A DNA stretch of 64,000 nt, taken from assembly GCF_001552555.1 (NCBI RefSeq), contig NZ_BCRK01000003.1:1-64000 (forward strand), written 5' to 3'. A program made the position numbers and the translations under genes. Positions 1-19,718 of the stretch are shown here, one piece after another (the stretch's first letter is position 1; the number at the start of each line of letters is the position of its first letter). Below the pieces are notes generated by a model. The model was not told the origin of the DNA and did no database searches. It saw only the letters and a list, made by a program, of their open reading frames with translations. Source of the stretch: Nocardiopsis trehalosi NBRC 14201 (GTDB lineage Bacteria > Actinomycetota > Actinomycetes > Streptosporangiales > Streptosporangiaceae).

Positions 1-3000
1 CGCGGCCGCGCGCAGCGCGCCCGCCGCGCGGCCGAGCCGGCCGCCCCGGCGCCCGCCATCGCCGCGGCCCCCGAACCCCTCCGCCTCACCCGCACCCCCG
101 CCGCCGCCCCACCCCGCCCCGAGGCCGCCCCGCCGCGCCCGAACGCCGTCCCCCAGCTGCGCCCGGACCGCCCGGAATGGCCGGCCTGGTCCGACGCCAC
201 CCCCGAGGCCGCCGGGGGCACCCCCCCTGCGGGGGAGGAGACACGCCCCGGCACCGAGCCCGACCGCACCGCCGTCGGCGAGCCCCGGCCCGAGAACGGG
301 CCCGCCCGGGAGGCCGTCCCCGACACGCCGGACCCCTGGCCTGTGTGGGAGCCCGAGCCGGACAACGCAGCCGTCCCGTCCCTCGCCGAGACCACTGCCG
401 CCAGAGCAGAGTCCCCATGGCCGTCCCGTGGACGCGCCGACGCCGAGCCGCCGAGGCCGGACGCGGAGGCCGGCGCCGCGATCGGCGGCAACGGCGTCTC
501 CGGCGTTCCGGACGCCGACGACGATGCCGCCTATGTGGAGTCCCGTCAGCCGTTCCGTGGACGCACCGCCGCTGAGGCGCCGAGGTCGGACGCGGAGGCC
601 GGTGCCGAGGTCGGCCGCAGCGGCGTCTCGGACGCCGATGCCCATGCCGATGCCGACGCCGCCTACGCGGATTCCCCGTGGCCGTCCCGTGGGCGTTCCG
701 GTGCCGCGTCGGGCGACCGCGCGCGGGACACGTCCGGCACGCCGGAGCCCTGGCCCGCGTGGGAGCCGGAGCGAGTGGAGTCCGCCGGCCGCGACGGCCG
801 TTCCACCGCCGCCGGCCGGGAACGCTCCCGGCCGACATGGGAGTACGGGCGCGCCGCCGTCGTGCCGACGCCCACCGCCCCGGAGCGGGAGCGGGCCGGA
901 TCGGGCCGGGAGGCCGCCGCGCACGGCGTCGCCGGGCACGCCGACGCGCCCCGGCCCGTCCGCGAGGGCGCCCGCGACACCGCGCCCCCCGCCGATCGCC
1001 GCACCGGGTACGAGGCCGCCGAGGACCCGTTCCCGTTCGAGGACCACGCGCCGGCCCGCCCGGCGCCCAGGTTCGCCCCGCCCGGCGGCGGCCGCACCCA
1101 CGCCGGCGCCGACGCGGCACACGGCGCCGCGCACCCGGCCCCCGACACCACCGGGGGGCGCGGGCGCGGAGGCGGCCGCGGTATGGGCATCAAGGTGCTC
1201 AACTACTTCGGGTTCGCCCTGCCCAAGGAGGAGCGCCCGGAACGGGGCGACACGCCGTCCTCGGGCCTCCCGGCCGCCGAGCGGACCGAACTCGGCTCCG
1301 CCAAGCACAAGGACGACGCCCCCGCACCGCGCCCGCACGGCCACCGCGCGCGCGGGTACGCCGAAGGGGCGGTCCCCAGCACGGTCGACGACGAACGCGA
1401 AGGGGCCTGGTTCACCGAACTCGGCGCCGCGTCCGGCGCCACCCCGTGGCCGATCGCCTCCAAGGGCGCGGCCTCCCGCCGCGACGACGGCACCGCCACC
1501 CGCCGCCGCGCCGAGGAGATGATGGCGGCCCCCCACCCGGACCCGGCCGCCCCGCACACCGAAGCCGACCGCGCCCGACACGACGCCGCCGTGCCCGCCG
1601 ACGCCCCTGACGCCGACCGCGCCCGGGGGGAGGCGGCCCCGCACGCGGGTGCCGCTGCCACCGACCGCGCTCGTCGGGAGGCCTCCGTGCAGGCGGGCTC
1701 CCCTGACGCCGACGGCGTCCGGCGGGAGGCCGCCTTGGACGCGGGCGCCTGCGACGTCGACCGCGCCCGACCTGACGCCGCCTCGCACGCCGACGCCCCC
1801 GCCGCCGAGTACCCTCCCGGACCCGTCTCCACCGGGTGCCGCCCCGGCGATGCCGCCGCCACGCCCGCCGCCTCCGGCGGCGGCGCTACCACCGAGGATT
1901 CCGCGCGGCGCGGCCGCGACACGGACACGGGCGACCGGAACGGGGCGCCGACCCGGGACCGCGGTCCCGCCGACCGAGGCCACGCACCGGCGGGTACCGC
2001 CTCCGACGTCCCCGACGACGACACGTGGCTCACCGCCCCCGGCCTGCACGACCGCTCCACCCGGGCCGGAACGCGCCCGCACCCCGGCGACGAGCGCGCC
2101 GCCGCCCGTTCGGACTCCTCCGCCCCCACGGACGTCCCCGCCGGTCAGGGCACCCCCGAGCGCACGGGCTCCGGGCCCGCAGACGGGCCGACCGGCGGCA
2201 GGTCCGCCGACGCGCGCGTCGGCGCCGAGTCCGCCCCGGCCCGAGCGGGCAGCGGGTTCCCCGGTGCGAACATTGAGCGTGGAGCCTCTGCGGGGCGCTC
2301 CGAGAGCGGGTCCGCACCCGCTCCCGCGCGCGCCGAGACCGCCCACGGGCGCGCCGCCCCCGGGGTCGGCGCGAACGGGCACCACAGCGAGCCCGGCACG
2401 GCCGCCTTCGAACGCGCGGAGGGCACCGCTCCCGCCGGGCGCGGCCCGCAGCGCCGCCTGCGCGCCCGCGCCCAGGGTGTGGAGGTCGCCCGCCGCCTGG
2501 AGCGCCGCCGCACCGCCGAGTCGGCGCCCACCCAGCCGCAGCGCCGCGCCGACCTCGCCCCGGGACCCTTCACCGACACCGGGCGCGACGCCGCCGCCCC
2601 GGCGCCCCCCGCGCCGACCGCGCCCACCGAAGCGTCCGCGCAGAGCCACGCCCCGACCGACCGCGGTGACACGTCCGCGCAGAGCCACACCCCGACGGGT
2701 CGTGGGGACACATCCGCGCAGAGCCCGACGGGCCGTGGCGACGCGCCGGAAGGACAGCGCGAGCGCGCCCTGCCCCCGGCGCCGCCCGAGCGCGCCCGCG
2801 GTTTCGGCGAGCCGGAACCGCCGGCCCGGGTCGAGCGGCCGCGCCTGGCCGACCGCCCCCGCCGCCGCCCGCACGCCGCCCCCTGGGACCTGCCCGTTCC
2901 GCTGTCGGAGCGGGACGCCACCGCACCGGATTCCGCCCCCGCGTCCGCCACTGGAGCAGCCACGACCGCCGACAAAACGGCCGTGCCCCCATCCACCCGC

Positions 3001-6000
3001 CCGGCCGCCCCCGCCCGCCCCGCCCCTGAGGACACCCGCCCGGCCGCCCCGTCGGCCGGTGGGCCGCACGGTGGCGCACCCGAGTCGGCGCACGGCGCCC
3101 TCTCGACCGGTGCGGTCGCCCCCTCCGGTCCGGCCACCGGCCTGACCGGCACGGACGCTCCCGCCGCCGAAGGCGGCACCACCCCCGCCTCCGGCGCGGA
3201 CCACGGCGGCGCCTCCGCCGGCCAGTCGGCCGACCGCCGGGACGGCGGCGCGGCCCAGGCGCCGACTCCGGGCAGCGGAACCGCCGCGACGGAGCGCAGC
3301 GAGGCGACCAACGCACCGGGCGCGTCCCGGACTCCGGCCGTCGCGAAGCCGCCGCTCCAGCTCGACCACGGCACCGGCGAACACGCGAGCATGACCGACA
3401 CCGTCCGCTCCTTCTCCGCCCCGGAGGGCGCCCCTGCCCCCCGGCGGCCAGACGGTCCCGCCCGCACCCCGCACCCGGCCCGCGACCCCGAGCTTCGGGA
3501 CCGCCCGGCCGACACCGACGCGGCCGCCGCATCCGCGAACGCCACCACGCCCGACCGCAATCGCGACCCCGCTCGCGACACCGATGGCCGTTCCGGCGTC
3601 GCTGCCCGCGTCGGCGGCCCCGAAGCCGCGCCCGCCGGACATGGGCGTCCGGGCGACGACACTCGTACCGGCGGCCCCGACGACATGGCCTCGCCGACGG
3701 CCCGCACTGGCACCGCCGACCGAGGGGACACCACCGCACCCGCAGCGGAGACGGGACGCACCGACAGCGCCGAAAGCGACCGCTCCGAGACCGTCCGCGC
3801 TGCGGACGACGGGCGCATCGGCGATGTGGGCGCGGACCGAGCGATCGGGGCGGATGAGGACACGTCCACTCGGCGCCCGGAAAGCGGGGCCATCGCCTCG
3901 GCGGATTCGGACTCCGGGCACCTGGGCGCCCGGGACGGCCGCTCCGGGGCCGTGCGCGCTGCGGACGACGGGCGCACCGGTGACGCGCGTGCGGACCGTG
4001 AGATCGGGTCGGACGAGAACGTGTCCACCGGTCGCTCGGAAAGCGGGCCTACCGCGGCGTCGGATGCGCGTGCCGGGTACCCGGACACCCCGAACACCTT
4101 GGACGCCCGCTCGTCCACCGACCTCACCGCGCCGGCTGCTGCCGGTGGCGACACCCCGGGCACCGGGGGTGGAGCCGCAGGGGACGGTGGACTCGCCTCC
4201 GCCGTCGACGCTGAGGGCGGGGACGCCCTCCGTGGGGCAGAGCCCACCGCTCAGACCGCGCCCACGTCCGGCGCCGGAGAGGCCGGGCGGAGCGAGGCTG
4301 CCGCGAACGACGTCGGTCGCCACGACGAGAGCACCCCCGAGGCCGTGCCGACCGGGCGTTCCGCGTCGGAATCCACCGAATCCTCGCGCCGGGGTGCCGC
4401 CGCTCTTCGGGACGACCGTTCCGAATCCGGAACGCCGTCGGTCGGAGACACCGAGGCGCCCCCTGGAACGGGCCGCGCGCACGCCGCCGCGCGTGCCGAC
4501 GACCGCCCGATGGACGCGGTCGACGTGCCGGGCGCCGCATCGAGCGGCGGAGCCGAACGGGGCGGGCGTCCCGCGCCGGACGCGGACGTGCGGCCGGAGC
4601 AGGGCTCGGTCGTGCAGGCGGAGCCGGGCTCGGGCGTCGGCGGGCGTCCGCAGACCACGGCGCGCACCGAGGCGGCTCCACCCGCCGAGGAGGTCCATTC
4701 CGGACGCGACGGCGACACCGACCGCCCGGACCGGAATGCGCCGCCCGCGTCGGAGGCCACCGCCGTCTCACCGCACGCCGACACCGTGCCGACCCCCGCC
4801 CACGGCCGCGCGAGCGGAGACGTCCGCGACAGCGGGCCCGCCGCCTCCGACGGGACCGCCGAGGACACCCTCCCGGACCGCACCGACGCCGCACGGCGCC
4901 GCACCGCCGCCACCGCCGCCGGAACGGACCCGTCCGCCACCGGCGGCCCCGCGACGGCGCGTCCGGCGCAGGACGCCGGGCGACCGGACGGCCTCGGGCG
5001 GGTTCCCACCGCCGAAGGCGCGGACGCCTCCGGTCCCGAACGCGAGACCCGCACCTCGGTCTCCGGGGCGGACGCGCCCGGTACCGCCGCTCGCCGGTCC
5101 ACCGGCGCCGAGTCGGCCACCGGCGACCGCGCCGATGCCCCCGCCGATACCGCCGCTCCGCGCCCGGCGCGGGAGGTGCGGTCGGCCGGCGGCCCGGGAG
5201 CGTCCACGGCCGCCGACCCCGCCGCCGGAGGCGCGGACACGCCGCGTACCGAACGCGGCGGCGACGTGTCGCGTACCGAACGTGGTGGCGACGCGCCGCG
5301 CGATGAGCGGCTCGACGTGCTCGACCGCCACCTCAGCCGGACCGATACCCCCGCTCCGCCGCCGCCCCGGTTCGCCCAGGCCGACGGCGAGACCCGGCGG
5401 CAGCCCGCCGGATGGTTCACCGACGCGGCACCGCAGGAGCCCGCCCGCCGCCCCGCACCGCAGGGCCGCCCGGCGGCGGACCCGCGCGCGCCCGGACACG
5501 GCGACGCCCGGACCGCCCCGGACCCCGCCGCCGACCGCCCCGCCCCGACGCGCGGTGACCACGCCGGGCACGCGCCGTCGGCGCCTTCAGCGGCCGCGCG
5601 CGGCGACCGCCCCGCAGGCTCCGCCGCCGGCGGCCGCGCACCCGACCGCGCCGCCCCCGGCGGCTCCGACGTCGCGTCCCGGTCGGCGGATGGCGACCAC
5701 GGTGCCACCGCGCACCGGGCCGCCGGGCAGGACGACCGCCCCGCCGCCTCGAATGGTGCTGGCGCCGCGCCTCGGTCGGCGGGTGGTGGCCACGGTGCGG
5801 CCGCGCACCCGGTCTCCGCGCAGGACGACCGCCCCGCCGCCGCCCCGGATGGCTCCGACGCCGTGTCCCGGCCGTCGGCCGCGTCCGGCGAGGGGCGGCC
5901 CGTCGGTGGCACGGACACCACCCCGCCGCTCGTCATCCCGCGCAAGCCGCCCCTGGAACTCGACCACGGCACCGGCGAGCACGAGAGCTTCGGCGACGTC

Positions 6001-7608
6001 GACGCCCCCCGCCGCCGGACCACGGCGGCCGACCTGGAGGCCGCCGAGGCCGCCGCCATCCGCGCCCGCCTCAACAGGTCCGCGCCGCGCCGCGCCCCCG
6101 AGCGGCCGGCGGAGCGGCCCGGCCGCGCCGACACGCCGCCCGCCCACCCGGCCGAGGACCGGCAGGCCGCCGCCCACCAGGCGCCTGCCCACCCGGCCCA
6201 GGACCGGCCGACCCGGGACCGGTCGGCCGTCGGCCACCAGCCGCCCGCCCGGCCGACCACACCGCCGACCGGGCGGACCGCCGACCCCGACCCCCGCCCC
6301 GCGGCCCCGGACGCGGCCGACCAGGAGCGCTCCTCCCGGCTGTCCCGCACCATGCGCGCCAACCCCACCGGCGCGCAGCCCTCGGCCGCCCCGGACCGCG
6401 CCGACCGCCCCGCCGGGGCCCGGCCGCCGCACGGCGACCGCCCGGCCGACGACGGCGTGTTCACCCGTGTCGCGCAGAACGCCCGCCGGATCAGCCACCT
6501 GTTCGGGCAGACCCCGCCGGGCACGGCGCCCGGCGGCCCCGAGCGGCGGGCCGCCTCCGGGCCCGCCGCCCCCACCGAACCCGACAAGCCGTCGCTCCAG
6601 CTCGACCACGGCACCGGCGAGCAGCAGAGCCTCACCGACACCCCCGGCACCGTCCCGCCCGTCCACCACGAACCGCCCGCCCACACCCAGGACACCCCCG
6701 GCTCGGGCGGCACCCGCGGCTGGCGCCGCCTCGCCCGCGTCGTCACCGGCGGCTCCAGCGCACCCCCCAAGTCCGACCTGCCGCCCGCCGACCTCGAACG
6801 GCTGCGCACCCCCCTCGGCGGGCCCAAGAACGTGGTCGTCCTCGGCTGCACCGGCGGCGCCGGGCAGACCATCACCACGCTGATGCTCGGCCACACCCTC
6901 GCCGCCCACCGCGACGAACGGGTCGTGGCGGTCGACGTCAACCCCGGCACCGCCGGGCTGTCCCGGCGGGTCCGCACCGAGACCCCCGAGACCCTCACCT
7001 CCCTGCTCGCCAACGTCGACGCCGTCCACGGCTACCTGGCGATGCGCCGCTACACGTCGCAGGCCCCGACCGGGCTGGAGGTCGTCGCCACCCTCGACGA
7101 CCCCTATGTGCAGACGCTCGACGACCGCGACTACGCCGGGCTCGCCGGGCTCCTCCGCGCCTACTACGAGGTGGCGGTCCTCGACCCGGCCGCCACCGGG
7201 GTGGCCCGCGCCCTGCCCGTGGTCGACGGGCTCGTGCTCGTCGCCCCCGCCAGCGAGGACGCCGCCCGATCGGTCGCCATGACCTTCGAATGGCTCGACG
7301 GGCACGGCTACGCGGCGCTGCGCTCCCGGGCGGTCGTCGTCATCAACGGGGTGAGCAAGCGCAGCCTCGCCGACGTGGACGAGGCCGAACGCGTCGCCCG
7401 CGGGCGCTGCCGGGCCATCGTCCGGGTGCCGTGGGACGACCACCTCTCCGCGGGCAAGGTCGTGGACGTCGGCGCCCTGCGCGCCACCACCCGCCGGGCG
7501 CACGCCGCCCTCGGCGGGGTCCTCCTGCACGGCCTGGCCGGCGGCACCGGCGCCGGGCCGACCACCCCGGGGACGGGCAACCGCGTCGGACCCGAGGTGC
7601 GGCGGTGA
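1..7608 (+). CDS. giant disordered protein with C-terminal ParA/MinD-like domain (5' end outside window)
   Basis: The frame is open from base 1, so at least 2,535 residues are present and the start lies upstream. About 2,260 residues are Ala/Pro/Arg/Asp/Gly-rich and probably disordered, with few hydrophobic islands (for example around 1183-1218 and 6460-6510). Internal repeats include W-P-x-W/R motifs near the left edge, three 13-residue units at 2635, 2674 and 2713, a 53-residue duplication from 3793, and three copies of a KPxLxLDHGTGE motif. The last ~260 residues (from about 6820) form a ParA/MinD/CpsD-like Rossmann domain. Its P-loop reads CTGGAGQT, so the lysine that binds phosphate is Gln. 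Downstream genes encode a type IV-like secretion apparatus, and this protein probably serves that machine as a positioning or recruitment factor (inference). Alpha/beta fold assignment is solid; biochemical role is unknown. Confidence 0.8.
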   Translation, partial: RGRAQRARRAAEPAAPAPAIAAAPEPLRLTRTPAAAPPRPEAAPPRPNAVPQLRPDRPEWPAWSDATPEAAGGTPPAGEETRPGTEPDRTAVGEPRPENGPAREAVPDTPDPWPVWEPEPDNAAVPSLAETTAARAESPWPSRGRADAEPPRPDAEAGAAIGGNGVSGVPDADDDAAYVESRQPFRGRTAAEAPRSDAEAGAEVGRSGVSDADAHADADAAYADSPWPSRGRSGAASGDRARDTSGTPEPWPAWEPERVESAGRDGRSTAAGRERSRPTWEYGRAAVVPTPTAPERERAGSGREAAAHGVAGHADAPRPVREGARDTAPPADRRTGYEAAEDPFPFEDHAPARPAPRFAPPGGGRTHAGADAAHGAAHPAPDTTGGRGRGGGRGMGIKVLNYFGFALPKEERPERGDTPSSGLPAAERTELGSAKHKDDAPAPRPHGHRARGYAEGAVPSTVDDEREGAWFTELGAASGATPWPIASKGAASRRDDGTATRRRAEEMMAAPHPDPAAPHTEADRARHDAAVPADAPDADRARGEAAPHAGAAATDRARREASVQAGSPDADGVRREAALDAGACDVDRARPDAASHADAPAAEYPPGPVSTGCRPGDAAATPAASGGGATTEDSARRGRDTDTGDRNGAPTRDRGPADRGHAPAGTASDVPDDDTWLTAPGLHDRSTRAGTRPHPGDERAAARSDSSAPTDVPAGQGTPERTGSGPADGPTGGRSADARVGAESAPARAGSGFPGANIERGASAGRSESGSAPAPARAETAHGRAAPGVGANGHHSEPGTAAFERAEGTAPAGRGPQRRLRARAQGVEVARRLERRRTAESAPTQPQRRADLAPGPFTDTGRDAAAPAPPAPTAPTEASAQSHAPTDRGDTSAQSHTPTGRGDTSAQSPTGRGDAPEGQRERALPPAPPERARGFGEPEPPARVERPRLADRPRRRPHAAPWDLPVPLSERDATAPDSAPASATGAATTADKTAVPPSTRPAAPARPAPEDTRPAAPSAGGPHGGAPESAHGALSTGAVAPSGPATGLTGTDAPAAEGGTTPASGADHGGASAGQSADRRDGGAAQAPTPGSGTAATERSEATNAPGASRTPAVAKPPLQLDHGTGEHASMTDTVRSFSAPEGAPAPRRPDGPARTPHPARDPELRDRPADTDAAAASANATTPDRNRDPARDTDGRSGVAARVGGPEAAPAGHGRPGDDTRTGGPDDMASPTARTGTADRGDTTAPAAETGRTDSAESDRSETVRAADDGRIGDVGADRAIGADEDTSTRRPESGAIASADSDSGHLGARDGRSGAVRAADDGRTGDARADREIGSDENVSTGRSESGPTAASDARAGYPDTPNTLDARSSTDLTAPAAAGGDTPGTGGGAAGDGGLASAVDAEGGDALRGAEPTAQTAPTSGAGEAGRSEAAANDVGRHDESTPEAVPTGRSASESTESSRRGAAALRDDRSESGTPSVGDTEAPPGTGRAHAAARADDRPMDAVDVPGAASSGGAERGGRPAPDADVRPEQGSVVQAEPGSGVGGRPQTTARTEAAPPAEEVHSGRDGDTDRPDRNAPPASEATAVSPHADTVPTPAHGRASGDVRDSGPAASDGTAEDTLPDRTDAARRRTAATAAGTDPSATGGPATARPAQDAGRPDGLGRVPTAEGADASGPERETRTSVSGADAPGTAARRSTGAESATGDRADAPADTAAPRPAREVRSAGGPGASTAADPAAGGADTPRTERGGDVSRTERGGDAPRDERLDVLDRHLSRTDTPAPPPPRFAQADGETRRQPAGWFTDAAPQEPARRPAPQGRPAADPRAPGHGDARTAPDPAADRPAPTRGDHAGHAPSAPSAAARGDRPAGSAAGGRAPDRAAPGGSDVASRSADGDHGATAHRAAGQDDRPAASNGAGAAPRSAGGGHGAAAHPVSAQDDRPAAAPDGSDAVSRPSAASGEGRPVGGTDTTPPLVIPRKPPLELDHGTGEHESFGDVDAPRRRTTAADLEAAEAAAIRARLNRSAPRRAPERPAERPGRADTPPAHPAEDRQAAAHQAPAHPAQDRPTRDRSAVGHQPPARPTTPPTGRTADPDPRPAAPDAADQERSSRLSRTMRANPTGAQPSAAPDRADRPAGARPPHGDRPADDGVFTRVAQNARRISHLFGQTPPGTAPGGPERRAASGPAAPTEPDKPSLQLDHGTGEQQSLTDTPGTVPPVHHEPPAHTQDTPGSGGTRGWRRLARVVTGGSSAPPKSDLPPADLERLRTPLGGPKNVVVLGCTGGAGQTITTLMLGHTLAAHRDERVVAVDVNPGTAGLSRRVRTETPETLTSLLANVDAVHGYLAMRRYTSQAPTGLEVVATLDDPYVQTLDDRDYAGLAGLLRAYYEVAVLDPAATGVARALPVVDGLVLVAPASEDAARSVAMTFEWLDGHGYAALRSRAVVVINGVSKRSLADVDEAERVARGRCRAIVRVPWDDHLSAGKVVDVGALRATTRRAHAALGGVLLHGLAGGTGAGPTTPGTGNRVGPEVRR
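3346..3402 (+). repeat. KPxLxLDHGTGE motif, copy 1 (inside giant ORF)
   Basis: Encodes KPPLQLDHGTGEHASMTD. It is one of three near-identical motif copies in a protein that otherwise shows no conserved sequence, and looks like a short linear binding motif. Confidence 0.8.
5944..6000 (+). repeat. KPxLxLDHGTGE motif, copy 2
   Basis: Encodes KPPLELDHGTGEHESFGD. Same core LDHGTGE as copies 1 and 3, with a different flanking tail. Confidence 0.8.
6586..6642 (+). repeat. KPxLxLDHGTGE motif, copy 3
   Basis: Encodes KPSLQLDHGTGEQQSLTD, about 60 residues before the ParA-like domain. Confidence 0.8.
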
Positions 7609-7739
7609 CGCCGCCGGCGGCCGCCGCGCCCCGCCCGGCGGCCCCCTCCGCGCAACCCACCGTCCGACCCCCGGTCCCCGGCGCCCGCACCGCCGCTCCG
7701 GACACCACGCACGCGACCACCCGGGAGGGCACCCGATGA
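7605..7739 (+). CDS. possible 44-aa translationally coupled peptide
   Basis: A 44-codon ORF whose GTG overlaps the TGA of the giant gene (GTGA) and whose TGA overlaps the ATG of the VirB4-like gene (ATGA). A GAGG at 7594-7597 is a plausible ribosome binding site. The peptide is Pro/Ala/Thr-rich without hydrophobic segments, so it may only relay ribosomes between the two large genes. The overlaps at both ends are the only support; codon composition alone cannot separate it from spacer. Confidence 0.4.
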   Translation: MTPPAAAAPRPAAPSAQPTVRPPVPGARTAAPDTTHATTREGTR

Positions 7740-10228
7740 ACGGCAGCAGGGGCGGCAGCCGCCTGGCGGTCCGCTACTTCGACGACCGCGTCCTGCTCAG
7801 CGAGGCCGAGGCGTGGGCGTACTTCCGCCTGCCCACCGTCTCCTACGAGTTCTCCACCCCGGAGGAGCGGGAGGCCCTCGCCACCAACATCACCATCGCG
7901 CTCGCCGCCATCCGGATGAACGACGCCGAAGTGCACCTGCGCGTCGCCCACCGCACCTACCCGGCGGCCGAATGGGCCACCCGGCTCGACCAGACGTCCG
8001 ACTCCGGGCCCGGCTGGTACGACTACCTCGACGAGATGTACCGGCACGTGTGGGCCAAGGACTTCTGGACCAAGGAGATCTACCTCGGCGTCCGGCTCGG
8101 GCAGCGGGGCGGTGTCCGCGGGCAGTTCTCCCAGGGGGTGTTCGGCGGCCTGCTCTCCGCCTACCAGCGCACCGAGCAGGTCCTCGGCATGGAGGACGAC
8201 GCGGTCGACGCCAAGGAGATCGCCCGCTGGTCGGACCAGGCCGAACGCCTCGGCCGCGCCCTCGCCGCCAGCGCCCTGCGCGCCCGCCACGCCACCTCCG
8301 ACCAGCTCGCCTGGCTGTTCCGGCACGCCGTCGCCGGCACCGCCGAGGAGCCGCGCACCTCCGCGGCGGGGCGCCGCACCTGGGGGCGGGGGGAGATCGA
8401 GCAGCTCGTCGACGGGGTCATCCACAACGGGCGGTCCCTGCTCCGGCTGGAGCAGGCCACCGGGTCGACCTACACCGCCCACTTGTCGTTCTCCCGGTTC
8501 CCCGACCTCATGCCGTTCCCCGACGGCGAGCCGTGGCTGCACTACGCCGACTCCCTGCCCTTCCCGGTCGAGGTGTCGCTGCGGATGAAGCTCGTCCCGC
8601 CCGCCAAGGCCAGCAAGGACGTCGGCCGCAAGCTCGCCCACGCCCGCGACATGGACGCGCACATCCGCGAAGCCGGGCAGGAGGCGCCGATCGCCCTCGC
8701 CGAGCAGATCGACGCCGCCCGCATGCTCGAACACGGCATCACCAAGGAGCGGCTGCCGTTCGTGTACGGGTGGCACCGGCTCATGGTGTCCGCGCCCACC
8801 GAGGACCTCCTCGTGCAGCGGGTGGAGGCCGTCGTGGAGCACTACCGCGACATCGGCATCGACGTCACCAATTCCACCGGCGACCAGCTCTCGCTGTTCA
8901 ACGAGTTCCTGCCCGGCGACCGCATCCGCCTCAACGCCTACGCCCAGCGGCAGCCCCTGCGCACCATCGCCGGCGGGATGCCCACCGCCACCGTCGACCT
9001 CGGAGACCGCCGCGACACCGGCATCGGCGGCGGCGGGTGGACCGGGCCCTACATCGGGGAGACCCTGGGGCGGGCCCGCTCCATCGTGCACTTCGACCCG
9101 ATGGTCGCCGCCGCCCGCAACCGGCCCACCGCCATCGCCATCACCGGCGAACCCGGCGGCGGCAAGACCACCCTGGCGCTGCTGCTCATCCACCAGCTCG
9201 CGCTGCGCGGCGTCACCGTCGCCGCCATCGACCCCAAGGGCGACGCCGAGTCGCTCGTCCAGCTGCTCCAGCGGCGCGGCCGCAAGGCCCGCATCATGTC
9301 CCTCGGCTCCGCCCAACCGGGCCTGCTCGACCCGTTCGCGTTCGGCGACGACCTGCCCACCAAGAAGACCATGGCCACCGAGACGCTCCGGCTGCTGCTG
9401 CCGCGCATGAGCGAGGAGCGGGAGTCGGCCATGATCCAGGCGGTCGCGGCGGTCGCCAACCAGCCCCGGCCCAGCCTGGCCAAGGTCGTCACCCACCTGG
9501 AGAACTCCGACGACGCGGCCTCGCGCAACCTCGGCGCGGTGCTGCAGTCCATGTCGGAGATGCGCCTCGCCAGCCTCTGCTTCGACCCGCAGGGCGACGC
9601 CCAGATCGACACCGAGGGGTGGACCACCGTGTTCACCCTCGGCGGGCTCACCCTGCCCGACTCCGCCATCCAGCGCGACGACTACTCCTACGAGCAGCGG
9701 CTCAGCGTCGCCCTGCTGTACCTGGTCAGCCAGTTCGCCCGCCGGCTCATGAACGGGCTCGACCGGCACCTGCCCAAGGCGATCTTCCTCGACGAGGCGT
9801 GGGCGGTGACCTCCACCCCGGAGGGCGCCAAGCTCGTGCCGGAGGTCTCGCGCATGGGGCGCTCCCGCAACACGGCGCTCATCCTGGTCAGCCAGAACGC
9901 CGGTGACCTTCTGAACGAGCAGGTCACCAACTGCCTGTCCAGCGTGTTCGCGTTCAGATCGAGTGAACGGTTCGAGGTGGAGAGCGTCATGGCGCTCCTC
10001 GGGGTCGAACCCTCCGAGGAGCACATGGCCATGCTCCGCAACCTCGGCAACGGCGAATGCATCTTCCGCGACCTCGACGGGCGCGCCGGACGCATCGCCG
10101 TCGACCTGGTGTCCGAGGAACTCCTGCGGTGGCTCGACACCAACCCCACCCGCCAGCGACCCGACGCAGACGACCCCGCGGCCGACGGCGCCCTCGTCGG
10201 CACCGGAACCACCAGGCAGGAGCGCTGA
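7736..10228 (+). CDS. VirB4/TraC-like conjugation ATPase
   Basis: 830 residues, usual for the VirB4/TraC family that powers type IV secretion at the inner membrane. The N-terminal half (1-460) is the family's less conserved docking region. Walker A GEPGGGKT lies at residues 471-478 and Walker B IFLDEAW at about 683-689, followed by a QNAGD sensor-like motif near 720. GGAGGG-type sequence 8-10 nt upstream supports the ATG at 7736, which overlaps the preceding small ORF. It lies directly upstream of a VirB6/TrbL-like gene, as in other actinobacterial conjugation-like clusters. It is the only obvious active motor ATPase in the cluster, because the ParA-like domain upstream lacks its P-loop lysine. 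Confidence 0.88.
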   Translation: MNGSRGGSRLAVRYFDDRVLLSEAEAWAYFRLPTVSYEFSTPEEREALATNITIALAAIRMNDAEVHLRVAHRTYPAAEWATRLDQTSDSGPGWYDYLDEMYRHVWAKDFWTKEIYLGVRLGQRGGVRGQFSQGVFGGLLSAYQRTEQVLGMEDDAVDAKEIARWSDQAERLGRALAASALRARHATSDQLAWLFRHAVAGTAEEPRTSAAGRRTWGRGEIEQLVDGVIHNGRSLLRLEQATGSTYTAHLSFSRFPDLMPFPDGEPWLHYADSLPFPVEVSLRMKLVPPAKASKDVGRKLAHARDMDAHIREAGQEAPIALAEQIDAARMLEHGITKERLPFVYGWHRLMVSAPTEDLLVQRVEAVVEHYRDIGIDVTNSTGDQLSLFNEFLPGDRIRLNAYAQRQPLRTIAGGMPTATVDLGDRRDTGIGGGGWTGPYIGETLGRARSIVHFDPMVAAARNRPTAIAITGEPGGGKTTLALLLIHQLALRGVTVAAIDPKGDAESLVQLLQRRGRKARIMSLGSAQPGLLDPFAFGDDLPTKKTMATETLRLLLPRMSEERESAMIQAVAAVANQPRPSLAKVVTHLENSDDAASRNLGAVLQSMSEMRLASLCFDPQGDAQIDTEGWTTVFTLGGLTLPDSAIQRDDYSYEQRLSVALLYLVSQFARRLMNGLDRHLPKAIFLDEAWAVTSTPEGAKLVPEVSRMGRSRNTALILVSQNAGDLLNEQVTNCLSSVFAFRSSERFEVESVMALLGVEPSEEHMAMLRNLGNGECIFRDLDGRAGRIAVDLVSEELLRWLDTNPTRQRPDADDPAADGALVGTGTTRQER

Positions 10229-10232
10229 AGCA

Positions 10233-12599
10233 ATGAGCCCGAGGTCGACACCCCTGCACCGGTGGATGCCCCGGCCGACGACCGCCGGCCGCAACCTCCG
10301 ACGCCACCTCGTGATGGCGGCCCTGCTCCTGGCCTTCCTCCTCATCCCCGTCGGCACCGCCCAGGCCGCCCCCGTCTGCGAGGGCGAACCGGCCCCCCAG
10401 CCGGAGGCGGCGGGCAGCGGTGCGGACGGGCTGCTGGTGCCGCCGCAGTCGGCGGAGGCGGTGGCGGCGTCCCCTGACGGTGAACTGCCCGACCAGAGCC
10501 TCTACGGACAGTACGGAACGGCGGGTCAGCAATGGCACGTCATTCGCGACTCCTGCGTGGACAAGTTGGGGACCAGCGCGATCGCCACGTTGAGCAACAC
10601 GACGTGGGACTTGTCGAAAACGATCAACCAGTCGACGATCACGGTGTACCAGGCCGCGACGTCCGATGGCCTGCTGGCCAGTTTCAACGGGCTCGTCGAG
10701 AGTGTCGTAGGGGAACTCCGGGAGGGAATCTGGCGGCCTCTGCTTCCCACGGTCATCATTCTGGGAGCGGTGTGGCTCGGTTGGTACGGGCTCGTCCGGA
10801 AACGGGTCACGCTGACGATCGAGAGCGCCGTGTGGATGGTCTTGGCCACCACGCTGGGCATCTGGATCCTGGTCAACCCGGGCCAGATCCTCGGATTGGC
10901 CGGTCAAGTGGTGAACTCGGGCGGCCAACTGGTCAACACCGCGGTCGCGCGCATTTCCGTCTCCGGGGTTGCGACGACGTGCCCGGCCGGGGCTCCCGAG
11001 ATCCAGCAGGCCGACTGGGAGGGCGATAGTGACTTCGCCGTCCGGCGGAACTCCCAGATGCTGTGGACGGGGCTGGTCTGCCAGCCATGGGTGGCGGGTG
11101 AGTTCGGTAGCGGTCCGACGGCCAGCGTCGCCGCACAGGAGTACGGGGTTCCTCTGCTCCAGGCGCAGGGGATCAGCCGTGCGGAGCAGCTCCTGATCGA
11201 ACGCGGCGAAGCGGACGCCACCGAGTTGAGGGAGCAGAAGCAGCAGGAGTACGAGGAGATCGCCTCGGGCATCCAGGACAACTATCCCGAGGTGTACCCG
11301 CTGTTCGAAGGGGATCAGCAGGGGAGCAGGTTCGGTGTAGCGGTCCTTGCCCTGTTCGCAGCGGTTTGCGCCGGAGGCCTCATTCTCGCCGGATCTGTCG
11401 CCCTCATTGTGCTTAAGATCGGTTTCCTGCTCCTCCTTCTCCTCTCACCGATCTTCCTCCTGATCGGCATCCATCCGGGGTACGGCCGCTCGGTCCTGCT
11501 CCGATGGTTCGAGATGGTGCTGGGCCTGCTCCTGAAGCAGGTCTTCGTGATGCTGCTCATCTCCCTGCTCGTGGTGTGCTACGGACTGGTGATGGCGACC
11601 AACCTCGGCTGGGGCCTGCAAATGATCCTGCTCGCCCTGTTCACCCTCGCCCTCTTCGTCTACCGCCGCCCGTTCGCCCACCTGTTCGCGTCGGTGAACG
11701 CCAACACCTTCACCTCGCGCATGGTGAGCGACGCGGTCACCAGCAGCGCCCTCAGCCGCAGCGCCAACGTCCTCCCGCCGGTCGCCTACATGCGCGCCCA
11801 GCGGTGGGGGCTCAAGCGGGCCCCTCAGTTGGCGGCCGCCGCCGGGGCGGTCCCCGCTGCGGGGGCGGCCGGCGTCGGCGCCGACACCCCCGATGCCGGG
11901 CGCGGTGCGGTGGACCCGGGCGACACCGAACCCACCGGCACGCGCGGCACGGCGGCGCGCGCCCGCGGAACCGCCGGCTACGGCCGGGTCCGCGGAAGGG
12001 CCGCACCGCCGCCCCTGCACCTCGGACAGACGGGCGGCGGCGACCCCGGTCGCGGCCAGCCCGCGTCCACGCAGCGCAGCTCCGCCCAGGCGCCACGCCT
12101 GAGCGAGGCCGCGTCGGTCGGCCTCGGCTCCCCGGGGCGGGCCCCCATCCCGCCGCGTCCGTCCGGCGGGTACACCGGCACGGGCGACACCGGGTGGGCC
12201 GCCGTCTTCGGCACCGGATCGGGCAGCGGGCAGCGGGCCGCGTCCGGCGGGGGAGGCGGGCCGTCCGCCCCGGGCGGGGGAGCCGCCGCGGACCGGGCCG
12301 CACCCAGCAGCGGCCAGGGCATCTTCCGGGGCCGATCGGCCACACCGCCGATGGCCGTCCCCGGCAGCGGATCGCGGTGGGGCTCCCCGCGCACCCGCCA
12401 GGACCGGCCCGCCCCGCCCGTGCGGGGCCCGCGCCCCGAGGCGCCCGCGCCCCGCGGCGAGGGCGGCGGCTGGATCAGCGGCTCCGGCCGCCGCAAGGAC
12501 GACGCCCCCATCAGCCCGTTCTGGACCGGTTCGGAACCGCAGCGCCGCCGCGAGCAGCGCCGCGACATCCCGTTCTGGCTCCGCGACGGCGATGACTGA
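10233..12599 (+). CDS. VirB6/TrbL-like polytopic membrane protein
   Basis: 788 residues from the ATG at 10233, 4 nt after the VirB4-like stop, with AGGAG upstream. This start gives a typical signal peptide (Arg/His-rich start, hydrophobic 27-45, likely cleavage near Ala45), while longer in-frame starts run into the preceding gene. Membrane segments are visible at about 170-188, 200-217, 368-412 (two), 428-455 and 464-478. The layout of an external N-terminal domain followed by a membrane core matches the TrbL/VirB6 channel family. Residues after ~530 are a long Gly/Pro/Arg-rich tail ending with two Pro-Phe-Trp motifs (SPFWTG and IPFWLRD), possible docking sites in the cytoplasm. The region 10500-11600 is noticeably less GC-rich in third positions than its neighbours. 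Confidence 0.8.
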   Translation: MSPRSTPLHRWMPRPTTAGRNLRRHLVMAALLLAFLLIPVGTAQAAPVCEGEPAPQPEAAGSGADGLLVPPQSAEAVAASPDGELPDQSLYGQYGTAGQQWHVIRDSCVDKLGTSAIATLSNTTWDLSKTINQSTITVYQAATSDGLLASFNGLVESVVGELREGIWRPLLPTVIILGAVWLGWYGLVRKRVTLTIESAVWMVLATTLGIWILVNPGQILGLAGQVVNSGGQLVNTAVARISVSGVATTCPAGAPEIQQADWEGDSDFAVRRNSQMLWTGLVCQPWVAGEFGSGPTASVAAQEYGVPLLQAQGISRAEQLLIERGEADATELREQKQQEYEEIASGIQDNYPEVYPLFEGDQQGSRFGVAVLALFAAVCAGGLILAGSVALIVLKIGFLLLLLLSPIFLLIGIHPGYGRSVLLRWFEMVLGLLLKQVFVMLLISLLVVCYGLVMATNLGWGLQMILLALFTLALFVYRRPFAHLFASVNANTFTSRMVSDAVTSSALSRSANVLPPVAYMRAQRWGLKRAPQLAAAAGAVPAAGAAGVGADTPDAGRGAVDPGDTEPTGTRGTAARARGTAGYGRVRGRAAPPPLHLGQTGGGDPGRGQPASTQRSSAQAPRLSEAASVGLGSPGRAPIPPRPSGGYTGTGDTGWAAVFGTGSGSGQRAASGGGGGPSAPGGGAAADRAAPSSGQGIFRGRSATPPMAVPGSGSRWGSPRTRQDRPAPPVRGPRPEAPAPRGEGGGWISGSGRRKDDAPISPFWTGSEPQRRREQRRDIPFWLRDGDD

Positions 12600-12694: not shown

Positions 12695-13345
12695 ATGCCC
12701 AAGTCGCTCTCCGAGGGGCAGCAGCGCCTCGTCTTCGGCGTCCTCGTCGCCGTCCTGGTCGCCTTCGGCCTCTACCTCAGCTTCGGCGGATTCTCCGGCG
12801 GCGACGAGGAGGCGCCGCCGCAGGCCGAGGGCGGTGACGGCGCCGACGGTGGCGGCGGCGAACAGCCCGCCGTCGACCCGCCGAGCCCGATCCCGACCAC
12901 GGCCACCGAGGACATGCGGGTGCTCGACTGGCTCCCCTTCACCGAGGACGAGCTGAAGGGTGCCGCCGCCACCGCCCAGGCGTTCGCCACGGCCTACGGC
13001 ACCATCGACTACGCGGAATCTCCCGAGGACTACTACGCCTCCATGCAGGCCCTGGCCACCGACGACTACGCCGAGACCCTCGCCCAGAGCTCGGGCGCCG
13101 GGGCCCTGTGGCAGGAGATGGGCGAGCAGGAGGCGGTCGCCGAGGGGCGGGCCGACGTCGAGTCCATCCGCGGCTTCGACGACGAGTCCGTGGTGTTCGT
13201 TGTCCGGGCCCAGTCCATCACCGAGGGCTCCGGAGGTGCCGACGAGGACCTCGGCGACTTCGCCGTCACCGTCGTGCGGGAGCGCGGCGAGTGGCGGGTC
13301 TTCGACTTCCAGCCCGCCGACGCCGGAAACCTCGGTGAGGGGTGA
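12695..13345 (+). CDS. VirB8/TcpC-like bitopic conjugation protein
   Basis: 216 residues: a short cytoplasmic start, one membrane helix at about 11-31, an acidic Gly/Pro linker (35-65), and a ~140-residue extracytoplasmic domain with the alternating helix/strand pattern of NTF2-like VirB8/TcpC proteins. The domain ends with the GEWRVFDF strand typical of that fold. VirB8-like proteins are bitopic assembly factors that contact VirB4 and VirB6 partners, both encoded just upstream. No strong ribosome binding site precedes the ATG, and a 14-bp hairpin lies in the gap, so expression may differ from the upstream genes. Family assignment is by topology, length and context, not strong sequence identity. 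Confidence 0.65.
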   Translation: MPKSLSEGQQRLVFGVLVAVLVAFGLYLSFGGFSGGDEEAPPQAEGGDGADGGGGEQPAVDPPSPIPTTATEDMRVLDWLPFTEDELKGAAATAQAFATAYGTIDYAESPEDYYASMQALATDDYAETLAQSSGAGALWQEMGEQEAVAEGRADVESIRGFDDESVVFVVRAQSITEGSGGADEDLGDFAVTVVRERGEWRVFDFQPADAGNLGEG

Positions 13346-13420: not shown

Positions 13421-14587
13421 ATGATCTCCCTCTTCACGACCGCGGTCCCGGACGACCGCGGCTCCTGCGCGACCCGGCTCGCCATCGGGGTCGGGCTGTT
13501 CATCGCGGGCGTGGTCGGCCTCGCCATGATCGTCATCCCCACCGCGTCGATGAGCCCCGGCATCCTCAACGTCGCGGGCGGGCTGCGGTGCACCGGCGAG
13601 ACCGCCGCCGACCAGGCCGAGAGCAGCGGCTACGCCGAGGACTCCATCCCCGCCAACTACCTGGAGATCTACCGCGAGGTGGGGGAGGAGAAGGGCCTGC
13701 CGTGGAACGTGCTCGCCGGCATCGGGCAGGTCGAGAGCAAGCACGGCCGCTGGGAGGGGCCGGGCATCACGGAGGGCCACAACGACTGGGGCGCCGCGGG
13801 GCCCATGCAGTTCGGCTCCCTCGACGGGTCCGCAGCCGGGAACAGCTGGGGCGGCGAACCGGTCATGGACGCCGACGACCGCCCCGACGAGGGCTACGGC
13901 CAGGACGGCAACGGGGACGGTGTGGTCAGCGTCTACGACCCGGCCGACGCCATCCCCGCCGCGGCGGACTACCTGATCGCGCACGGGGCCAAGGAGGACA
14001 TGCGCCAGGCGGTGTTCGGCTACAACCACGCCTGGTGGTACGTGGACGACGTGATGGGCTGGGCCGAGACCTACGCCGACGGCGACTTCGACACCAGCGG
14101 CTCCATCGAGACCGCGGTGAACTGCGAGGTCAACGAGGACGGGATCCCCGTGGGGCGGGCGCCCAACGAGGCCGCGCAGGCCGTCGTCGACTGGGCCATG
14201 GACCAGCGCGGCAAGCCCTACATCTGGGGCGGTGTCGGGCCGACCGGCTACGACTGCTCCGGGCTGCTGTACAAGGCGTACGAGAGCATCGGGGTGTCCA
14301 TCCCGCGCGTCTCCCAGGACCAGTGGAACTTCGGGCCGCGGGTGCCGGCTGGGGAGGAGCAGCCGGGCGACTTCGTCTTCTTCGACGTGCAGCGCCCGGG
14401 CGAGCCCCCGGGGCCGGGACACGTCGCGATGGTGATCGGCGACGGCCTGATGGTGGAGGCCTGGTGCACCAACTGCGGGCCCATCGCCACCCGTGAGTAC
14501 GATGACCCGAGCCGCGCCGACGTCCTGGGCTTCACCCGGCCCCTGGAACACCCGGACGTCCAGGCCCAGTTGGAGACGCGGGGCTAG
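13421..14587 (+). CDS. VirB1-like bifunctional muralytic enzyme (lytic transglycosylase + NlpC/P60)
   Basis: 388 residues. A membrane anchor spans about 19-41. A lytic transglycosylase domain follows (85-240) with the presumed catalytic Glu105 in GQVESKHG and the GPMQFG motif. A C-terminal NlpC/P60 endopeptidase domain carries Cys279 (YDCSGL) and His334 (GHVAMV). The same pairing is found in CwlT and TcpG-type proteins of Gram-positive conjugative elements, where it opens the peptidoglycan for the secretion channel. AGGTGA lies just upstream of the ATG. It is the fourth secretion-apparatus gene in a row, all on one strand. Confidence 0.88.
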   Translation: MISLFTTAVPDDRGSCATRLAIGVGLFIAGVVGLAMIVIPTASMSPGILNVAGGLRCTGETAADQAESSGYAEDSIPANYLEIYREVGEEKGLPWNVLAGIGQVESKHGRWEGPGITEGHNDWGAAGPMQFGSLDGSAAGNSWGGEPVMDADDRPDEGYGQDGNGDGVVSVYDPADAIPAAADYLIAHGAKEDMRQAVFGYNHAWWYVDDVMGWAETYADGDFDTSGSIETAVNCEVNEDGIPVGRAPNEAAQAVVDWAMDQRGKPYIWGGVGPTGYDCSGLLYKAYESIGVSIPRVSQDQWNFGPRVPAGEEQPGDFVFFDVQRPGEPPGPGHVAMVIGDGLMVEAWCTNCGPIATREYDDPSRADVLGFTRPLEHPDVQAQLETRG

Positions 14588-14624
14588 TCTCCGCGCCCTT
14601 GCCACCCCTTCCCGAGGACGACAC

Positions 14625-15383
14625 ATGCCCGAGAGACAGGCCGAGCGGAGCGAGAAGCAGGGCGTTCACGGCTGGCGTGCCTTCTTCCTGATGTTCGGAT
14701 GCGGGACGGTGGCCGCCTTGGTGATGGTCGGTGGTGTGGTCGGCGTGGTGCGGACCCTTACCTCGGATAGCGGTGTGTCCGGTGGTGAGCCGGGTGTCGT
14801 CGAGTCGCGGCAGCCCAGGGAGACCATGCCACCTGAACTCCTCGATCTATGCGAACTCGTCGAGGCGCAGAGCCTCATGTCCGCCTCCCCCTATAACCGC
14901 ACGGAGGAGGACGACGACTACATGGACACCGCGACTGGAGGCGAGAGCGTCGACCCGCGTACCGTCAGCGACGAATGCGCGTGGGAGGTCACCGCCGGCT
15001 CCGCCAGTGTCTGGCAGTTCGAGCTTTCCTATCGAGCGTTCATCGAGACGGAGGGGCAGGAATCCCTTAGCGAACTGGCCGACGAGGAGTACCGGGGACG
15101 TGTCGATGCATCGGCCGACGAGGTTCCCCGGCCGGAAGCCGAGGGGCCGGTCGTAGGGATGCCCGGTGAGTCGTACTACCGATACCGGACGTCAAAGACC
15201 GGCGGCGACTCCTACGAACTCGTGCGGATCGTCAAGAGCGGTGTCTACGAGGTGCGGCTGAGCGGTCCCGACGAGTCGACGAGCGAGCCCGTGACGGAAC
15301 AGGACTTTCGCCAGGAGTTGCTGCAGGCGACGCCGTTCCTGGACCGCGCCTTTGAACGGCACATCCCCGACGAGGTGGAGTGA
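14625..15383 (+). CDS. membrane-anchored protein of unknown function
   Basis: 252 residues from the ATG at 14625, preceded by GAGGA. A charged 16-residue start is followed by one membrane helix (about 19-43) and an acidic extracytoplasmic domain with two Cys (in LDLCELV and DECAWEV) that could form a disulphide. I do not recognise the family; the pattern resembles actinomycete DUF3558-like surface proteins with paired cysteines. It starts 37 bp after the VirB1-like gene on the same strand and may be the last gene of the secretion operon. Its GC content is lower than that of the flanking genes. Confidence 0.7.
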   Translation: MPERQAERSEKQGVHGWRAFFLMFGCGTVAALVMVGGVVGVVRTLTSDSGVSGGEPGVVESRQPRETMPPELLDLCELVEAQSLMSASPYNRTEEDDDYMDTATGGESVDPRTVSDECAWEVTAGSASVWQFELSYRAFIETEGQESLSELADEEYRGRVDASADEVPRPEAEGPVVGMPGESYYRYRTSKTGGDSYELVRIVKSGVYEVRLSGPDESTSEPVTEQDFRQELLQATPFLDRAFERHIPDEVE

Positions 15384-18379: not shown

Positions 18380-19438
18380 TCATCCCCGTGGGAGCAGACG
18401 GCTCCACTCGCGGGCGGGGCGGGGGAGTCGGACGGCGACCTGGGTCCACTCCTCCGCGAGGAGGGCGCGGACCGCCGCGCCTCGGTCGACCCGGCCGCCT
18501 CCGGGCTCCGGCCCCCGGCCGGCCACCGCGAGGGCGCGGTCGAGGAGTTCCGTGGAGTCGGGCCGGTCGCCGGGGGACTTCGCCATGGCGGCGAGGACCA
18601 GGTCCTCCAGCGCGGGGGAGAGGCGGTCGAGGTCGGGCTCCTCCGCCAGCACCCGGCGGGCGAGCTCGCGCGGGTGGCCGTGGCCGAAGGGGTCGTGGGC
18701 GGCGGCGGCGAACGCGACCAGGCACCCCCACAGGAACACGTCCGACCGGTCGGTGACCGGTTCCCGGCGGTACTGCTCGGGGCTGATCCAGCCGGGGGTG
18801 CCGACACCGTCGGCGGGGCCGTGGGCGGTGCCGTCGCCGGCGGGGGCGGGGTCGGCGGAGATGCGGAGGGTGCGCAGCCGCCGGCGGAACCGGCGCACCC
18901 GCATCCACCGCGTCGGGTCTTCGCCGTCGGTAGGGCGGGCGATACCGAAGTCGAGCACCTTGGGGCCGACCGGTGAGATGACGACGTTGCTCGGCTTGAG
19001 GTCGCGGTGCACGACCCCGGCGGCGTGGATCGCGCGCAGCGCCTCGGCGGCGCCGACCGCCAACCCGTTCAGCATGCCGCCCCGCAGGGGCCCGTGCCGC
19101 TCGACGTGGTGCCGCACCGTGGGGCCGGGCACGTACTCGGTGACGAGCCACGGCACCTCGGCCTCGACGTCGGCCCGGACGAACCGCGCCACACACCCGC
19201 TGTTGACCCGCGCCAGCAACCGGGCCTCGTGCGCGAACCGGCGCCGGAACGCGGGGTCGGCCGCGTGCTCGGCGTGCACGACCTTCACGGCGAGGTACCC
19301 GTCGACGCCGTCCGCCACCCCGGCGTACACGGTGCCCATCCCGCCGGCCCCGATCCGCCCGACCAGCTCGAACCCCCCGACCCGCCGCGGATCCCCCTCC
19401 CCCAACCGCCCCAACCGCCGCACCCCGCGCGCCTTCAC
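18380..19438 (-). CDS. soluble Hanks-type Ser/Thr protein kinase
   Basis: 352 residues from GTG at 19438, chosen because GGAGG stands 7 nt upstream and the kinase domain begins soon after. Motifs in order: Gly-rich loop GAGGMG (30-35), Lys52 in AVKVVH, catalytic HRDLKPSN (Asp146), DFG (163-165), and GTPGWISPE in the activation segment. An Arg-rich stretch (RRFRRRLRTLR) follows DFG. There is no membrane helix or PASTA sensor, so it is a cytoplasmic kinase, unlike PknB. It is divergent from recD2, with which it shares a 280-bp intergenic region. Confidence 0.9.
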   Translation of the reverse strand: MKARGVRRLGRLGEGDPRRVGGFELVGRIGAGGMGTVYAGVADGVDGYLAVKVVHAEHAADPAFRRRFAHEARLLARVNSGCVARFVRADVEAEVPWLVTEYVPGPTVRHHVERHGPLRGGMLNGLAVGAAEALRAIHAAGVVHRDLKPSNVVISPVGPKVLDFGIARPTDGEDPTRWMRVRRFRRRLRTLRISADPAPAGDGTAHGPADGVGTPGWISPEQYRREPVTDRSDVFLWGCLVAFAAAAHDPFGHGHPRELARRVLAEEPDLDRLSPALEDLVLAAMAKSPGDRPDSTELLDRALAVAGRGPEPGGGRVDRGAAVRALLAEEWTQVAVRLPRPAREWSRLLPRG

Positions 19439-19718
19439 AGCGAGGCCTCCGCATCCGGGGCGTGGGTGGAGGGAACCGGCCGTGCCGATCGGCCGTGCGG
19501 ACAGAGGGGTACCGCGCGCATGGGGCCGTCCAAGGCGTCGTCGGGGATCGTGCGGGGATTCTACGCGGCCGCGCGCGGCCGCCGGTGGCGGCAGCGGTCC
19601 CGCTCCGACTGGCGGGACGTCGGCGGGGCGCGGTAGGAACGATGCCGGGCCCCGCCCGCGGCGCACGCGGCCGCCGGGGCGGGCAGGGCGGGCAGCGGCA
19701 GCGCGGAGGGGGCGGACG

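Follow-up and report, generated by a model that had tools for sequence, protein, structure and literature searches.

The first gene of the window (the whole stretch of DNA that was analysed, 64,000 nucleotides of Nocardiopsis trehalosi NBRC 14201) encodes the greater part of a protein in which a VirB3-like membrane subunit, TcpE, is fused through a very long, disordered and modular tail to a ParA/MinD-fold domain that has lost both P-loop lysines. This fusion lies in a chromosomal operon for a conjugation-type type IV secretion system (T4SS) and is conserved across the order Streptosporangiales; a literature search for a TcpE-ParA fusion found no description of one. The architecture suggests that the fusion is a way of anchoring or regulating such machines. 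We read the cluster as a chromosomal T4SS of the conjugation type that has been domesticated and in which the VirB3 subunit carries a degenerate ParA domain at the end of a long cytoplasmic tether, and put the probability of this reading at about one half. A giant disordered protein with a ParA-like domain beside a T4SS-like cluster had been predicted from the window, and this was borne out by residue composition, FoldIndex, AlphaFold2 and Foldseek, and by the Pfam matches of the neighbouring genes. The features are given below in window coordinates, unless contig C196 is named.

1..7608 (+): gene for TcpE, disordered region and probable pseudo-ParA; open frame of 2,535 codons, 5'-truncated by the contig edge
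C196:10754-11201: missing first ~138 codons, including the TcpE domain; joins window 1-34 in frame
1..6717 (+): disordered A/P/G/R/D/T-rich tail, ~2,240-2,250 residues (composition, FoldIndex, AlphaFold2 of a short orthologue)
1195..1221 (+): conserved island VLNYFGFAL
2452..2469 (+): conserved island RRLR[GA]R
2866..2886 (+): conserved island RPHAAPW
3358..3381 (+): [QE]LDHGTGE motif, copy 1
5314..5364 (+): conserved island VLDRHL...DTPAPP
5956..5979 (+): [QE]LDHGTGE motif, copy 2
6466..6489 (+): conserved island RVAQNARR
6598..6621 (+): [QE]LDHGTGE motif, copy 3, nearest the ParA domain
6718..6735 (+): GWRRLA segment immediately before the ParA fold
6781..7605 (+): ParA/MinD-fold domain (Pfam CbiA, 1e-4, just under the cut-off; AlphaFold2; Foldseek)
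6844..6870 (+): degenerate P-loop GCTGGAGQT, the KGGVGKT lysines replaced by T and Q
7736..10228 (+): VirB4-type ATPase, TcpF-like (AAA_10, 1e-65; P-loop GEPGGGKTT intact)
10233..12599 (+): VirB6/TrbL-like polytopic protein (PF04610, 4e-7; start at 10233)
12695..13345 (+): second VirB8-like membrane protein, assigned by position and topology (no Pfam match)
13421..14587 (+): VirB1-like wall hydrolase, SLT-like plus NlpC/P60 (PF00877, 2e-19)

The frame across 1..7608 contains no internal stop and runs off the left edge of the window, whose first base is also the first base of contig C3 in a 368-contig assembly; frameshifts splitting the frame, a possibility raised in the original prediction, are not present. 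GC content is highest at the third codon position throughout (0.81-0.98), and BLASTP matched orthologues in frame within the tail and at both ends of the window protein, so that the frame is coding; together with the frame-consistent conservation this rules out a chance GC-rich frame. A 1,566-residue antisense ORF over the same interval can most likely be put down to the same composition, as a mirror-frame artefact. The gene is real and unbroken, truncated by the contig edge alone.

In 20 related genomes (two of them with the gene cut by a contig end) the N-terminus of the ORF is a membrane domain, VDLPTYTNIWRIEKRLYKLYD..., which matches Pfam TcpE (PF12648) with E-values of 1e-18 to 7e-22. TcpE is single-copy in the N. 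trehalosi genome and is located at C196:10754-11071 (E 1.9e-22 for the window gene's own N-terminus). The last 34 bases of contig C196 are identical to window positions 1-34, this 34-mer has no other occurrence in the assembly, and the frames join, giving a protein of about 2,673 residues with TcpE at ~1-102, the disordered tail to ~2,375 and the ParA domain from there to the C-terminus. The fusion of a disordered region to ParA had been recognised correctly, whereas the TcpE end, lying outside the window, could not be seen. In known systems the gene directly ahead of VirB4 encodes TcpE, which is identified as the probable homologue of VirB3 (PMC12857230). The tail is therefore a C-terminal extension of a VirB3-like subunit and an integral part of the machine, not a neighbour of it. 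A VirB3-type subunit is usually a membrane protein some 100 residues long. By topology reasoning from its two transmembrane helices and the flanking basic residues, both ends of TcpE, and with them the tail, are predicted to be cytoplasmic, which would place the ParA head on a cytoplasmic tether.

Upstream of the gene, C196 carries ychF, a TcpC protein (PF12642, 2e-13; a VirB8-like component) and a 110-residue membrane protein in the VirB2 position. The gene order is TcpC, VirB2-like, TcpE~tail~ParA, VirB4, VirB6, VirB8-like and wall hydrolase; the fusion gene is the third of the cluster, and not its first component as had been proposed, and VirB4 is the next T4SS gene after it. The VirB4-, VirB6-, VirB8- and VirB1-like genes expected downstream all follow, the last as an NlpC/P60 plus SLT hydrolase. 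The NCBIfam model nearest to the VirB4 is TcpF (3e-73, under the curated cut-off of that exception model), and the VirB6/TrbL-like protein has a C-terminal tail that looks disordered. The TcpC/TcpE/TcpF machinery of pCW3, an MPF-FA T4SS, likewise has TcpE (PF12648) upstream of a TcpF-like VirB4, together with TcpC (PF12642), VirB6 and a wall hydrolase, and ConC of ICEBs1 and OrfE of ICESt3 are members of the TcpE family. Compared with that machinery, the cluster described here is chromosomal and vertically conserved, its TcpE bears a tail and a ParA domain, and it has no linked coupling protein of the TraG type. The search for coupling proteins covered this type (TraG-D_C, PF12696), as distinct from the FtsK type, to which TcpA belongs; PF12696 is missing from several whole genomes that carry the cluster, and the match in the N. 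trehalosi genome sits on another contig, unlinked to it. Among the collinear operon genes there is no relaxase or mobile-element gene, and the flanks are made up of housekeeping genes.

A contig scan of relatives gave 80 loci, nearly all named, from Nocardiopsis, Streptomonospora, Thermobifida, Marinactinospora, Actinomadura, Nonomuraea, Microbispora, Streptosporangium and others. Sixty of them hold a complete single ORF with TcpE and ParA domains, and the two are thus fused in 60/60 assessable loci of Streptosporangiales; the fusion is genetic evidence for the VirB3-VirB4 base and a ParA-like module working in one place. Contig ends cut another 16 loci, and four look split; these four were candidates for separate TcpE and ParA genes in some chromosomes, a possibility rejected because they show Ns or an apparent single frame change in draft assemblies. 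The ParA domain alone, the arrangement that would have spoken against a fused giant protein, is encoded in none of the 80 orthologous loci. Within the reach of the flanks, operon order is collinear in all 60 complete loci, and the housekeeping gene ychF adjoins the operon in 37 of them; the chromosomal location is vertically conserved across Streptosporangiales. The extreme length noticed at the outset is genuine, the window protein being longer than every one of the 60 complete orthologues (785-2,137 residues, median 1,191) and about twice as long as that of the nearest relative (L102; 1,382 residues). The tails range from several hundred residues to the roughly 2,250 of the window protein.

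The PF12648 domain was detected in 27 of 296 sampled genomes of the class, all belonging to one family, of which 27 of 28 listed members carry it; in the remaining one (G003) a contig edge truncates the gene. The fusion is also present in a single genome (G025) belonging to a second family of the order. This distribution bears on the cmdABCDEF operon of Streptomyces, likewise a chromosomal VirB4-containing membrane operon of hyphal actinobacteria, with the genes SCO4126-4131. The cmd operon, whose cmdB encodes a VirB4-like membrane ATPase, is needed for normal sporulation and chromosome segregation, and its deletion leads to anucleate spores and aberrant branching (PMC2782261). The TcpE~ParA cluster might be the Streptosporangiales counterpart of cmd, a T4SS-like membrane complex serving aerial growth, septation and segregation in sporulation; its ParA tether would then connect it with the chromosomes. 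We consider this unlikely, because PF12648 was found in none of the 296 sampled genomes outside the one family and the gene contents differ as far as they are described, the two systems being likened by description and not by sequence.

Related clusters, with VirB4 proteins 75-79% identical, are found on three Nocardiopsis plasmid records (NZ_CP080600.1, NZ_CP074136.1 and NZ_CP099838.1; L098, L099). On the two plasmids examined (from Nocardiopsis sp. MT53 and N. exhalans) TcpE is a separate gene for 158-169 residues directly before VirB4, and a canonical KGGVGKT ParA adjoins the VirB6 and VirB2-like genes. The tail is thus dispensable in some versions of the machine, and ParA, here present in trans, is again tied to it. 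The plasmid copies nest inside Nocardiopsis in the VirB4 tree (99/98; one plasmid row is long-branched), which makes a chromosomal origin of the plasmid system most likely and disfavours that system as the ancestor of the chromosomal one. The plasmid ParA, considered as an unfused form of the fused domain, was found to belong to the canonical paralogue clade instead (98/91). MOB-suite typed the Nocardiopsis plasmids with the T4SS cluster as non-mobilizable. The occurrence of homologous clusters on plasmids would be in line with an ordinary integrated conjugative element in which a gene fusion arose by chance, but this is very improbable, given that the collinear operon keeps its housekeeping neighbourhood throughout Streptosporangiales, that a linked TraG-type coupling protein is lacking, and that the plasmid VirB4 copies nest within the chromosomal clade.

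Residues 1-2260 of the window frame are rich in A, P, G, R, D and T (A 21%, P 13%, G 12%), aromatic and aliphatic residues being very scarce. FoldIndex is below zero at 86% of the linker positions, against 0% at the N-terminal and 2% at the C-terminal end. AlphaFold2 predicted secondary structure at both ends of the shortest orthologue and an unstructured linker (pLDDT ~33) in a model of low overall confidence, which therefore supports disorder in a qualitative sense. Local tandem duplications with units of 48, 159, 93 and 39 bp are visible in the ORF. The tail is modular; in the Nocardiopsaceae its conserved islands are collinear (NYFGF, RRLRxR, PHAAPW, LDHGTGE, DTPAPP, LDHGTGE, RVAQNARR, LDHGTGE, GWRRLA), with the full set absent from some members, and the length differences among orthologues are due to spacers and not to islands. 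One to six copies of LDHGTGE are present in each of the 32 clade-defining Nocardiopsaceae sequences and in the window protein; in the N. trehalosi genome the motif is encoded in the TcpE~ParA gene only, and 7e-6 occurrences would be expected from composition.

The fused C-terminal domain has a ParA/MinD fold according to AlphaFold2 (pLDDT 87; two plasmid rows were left out of the alignment used for folding), and its best Foldseek matches are ParA (3ea0, E 2e-10), FleN, FlhG, Soj and MinD. The original prediction was therefore right about the fold, yet it did not see that the P-loop lysines are lost. In 80/80 loci the P-loop reads GC[TA][GS][GS]AGQ[TS], with T or A in place of the first and Q in place of the second lysine of the deviant Walker A motif (KGGxGK[ST]), and this replacement of both lysines makes it likely that the domain is a pseudo-ATPase; the loss of the lysines by itself does not exclude nucleotide binding. 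In the same alignment KGGVGKT is intact in the separate ParA paralogue of the genome and in the plasmid ParA proteins, and the fused domains form one clade (support 100/100). FleN/FlhG, MinD and Soj, which share the fold and by analogy point to the positioning of large assemblies, are active ATPases with no fused transmembrane anchor, whereas the fused domain is membrane-tethered and probably inactive.

The tail could also be pictured as a condensate or brush scaffold, or as an entropic barrier, on the cytoplasmic face, the ParA domain being a vestige retained for folding or stability. The several-fold variation in length, with the nearest relative at about half, the strongly biased composition and the growth of the tail by local tandem duplication would all agree with such a role. 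However, the tail motifs are collinear and conserved, and the ParA domain, with a mean column identity of 52-54% and a P-loop Gln that is invariant among the fused forms, hardly looks like a vestige; we regard a pure scaffold or barrier as quite improbable.

The separate paralogue (G000:C13; L009:9411-12101, minus strand) lies near a seryl-tRNA synthetase gene, has a long Pro/Gly/Ala-rich N-terminus and is of the same type as the plasmid-borne ParA. It is this protein, and not the fusion, that has the layout of a Pro-rich start before a KGGVGKT ParA, and no ESX genes were seen among its examined neighbours. The likeness to EspI that had been drawn for the giant protein is therefore superficial. 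EspI and other Pro-rich actinobacterial ParA proteins do share with the fusion a disordered Pro/Ala-rich region and a ParA fold, but the fusion has T4SS and housekeeping genes and no ESX genes around it, begins with a TcpE membrane domain and has its P-loop lysines replaced.

The C13 ParA is a candidate partner of the fused pseudo-ParA. ParA/MinD proteins position flagella, and VirC1 does so for T-DNA. The dead ParA head might accordingly heterodimerise with the canonical Pro-rich paralogue, so that the pair would act as an ATP-dependent positioning switch and the tail as a mere spacer. An intact paralogue of the same ParA type in the same genome, 39-40% identical to the fused domain, the canonical ParA of the plasmid-borne clusters, and a fused domain with a fold of the MinD/FlhG/FleN kind are all consistent with this. 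Paralogues of the C13 type are, however, also present in groups without detected PF12648, and must therefore do another job too; a switch of this kind appears rather doubtful to us.

Other conjugation-type systems, the domesticated archaeal Ted system among them, also come with proteins of the ParA/VirC1 type (PMC9905601). VirC1 of Agrobacterium and the VirC1/ParA-like protein of Ted are thus ParA/MinD-family members that go with a conjugation-type system, which in the case of Ted is chromosomal (domesticated) like the cluster described here; both are separate proteins, whereas here the domain is fused to a VirB3-like subunit and has lost its P-loop lysines. In the reading that we prefer, that of a domesticated T4SS with a tethered ParA head, TcpE would lie in the membrane next to VirB4, its C-terminus facing the cytoplasm, and each assembled machine would consequently show several long tethers, each ending in a ParA-like head. 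This head would no longer cycle with ATP and may serve as a constitutive docking module. Its partner would most plausibly be the canonical ParA paralogue, the nucleoid or a substrate complex, and capture of that partner would position the machine or feed substrate to it. The tail motifs, above all [QE]LDHGTGE, might be additional binding sites whose number sets the valence, with the spacers between them free to lengthen. As in archaeal Ced and Ted, the domesticated apparatus would probably handle the host's own DNA or protein and would rather not be the transfer system of a mobile element. We suggest only tentatively that such a machine, present order-wide in actinobacteria of which many are hyphal, links the T4SS channel with a ParA partner or with the position of the chromosome, and that it may help to move DNA during sporulation or from one hyphal compartment to another.

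In archaea, conjugation machinery has been reported to be domesticated for the transfer of the host's own DNA, and the authors of that report knew of no other organisms (PMC9905601). A chromosomal conjugation-type system kept through an actinobacterial order, including the tractable Thermobifida and Nocardiopsis, would be a candidate for such domestication in bacteria. The natural length series of 785-2,673 residues, in which the motifs stay collinear, lets tether length and motif number be tested directly.

Some further observations concern the vicinity of the operon. A gene for a transmembrane protein without Pfam match (window 14493-15383) overlaps the end of the hydrolase gene; in the first ortholog set it was detected behind the hydrolase in loci of the Nocardiopsaceae type and in no others. 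In several Nocardiopsis (L114:7711-9793, and the same place in L121, L122 and L137) the T4SS operon is interrupted between the ParA end and VirB4 by two genes, one inverted and encoding a PhyH dioxygenase (PF05721) that looks like an ectoine hydroxylase, the other encoding a secreted GmrSD_C/HNH-type nuclease-like protein (PF07510), which could be a substrate or a passenger. Farther downstream, at window 18552-22430, a RecD2-like helicase frame of 1,292 residues has its first helicase domain match (OB_YrrC) from residue 403; either the protein has a long N-terminal extension or its true start lies further downstream.
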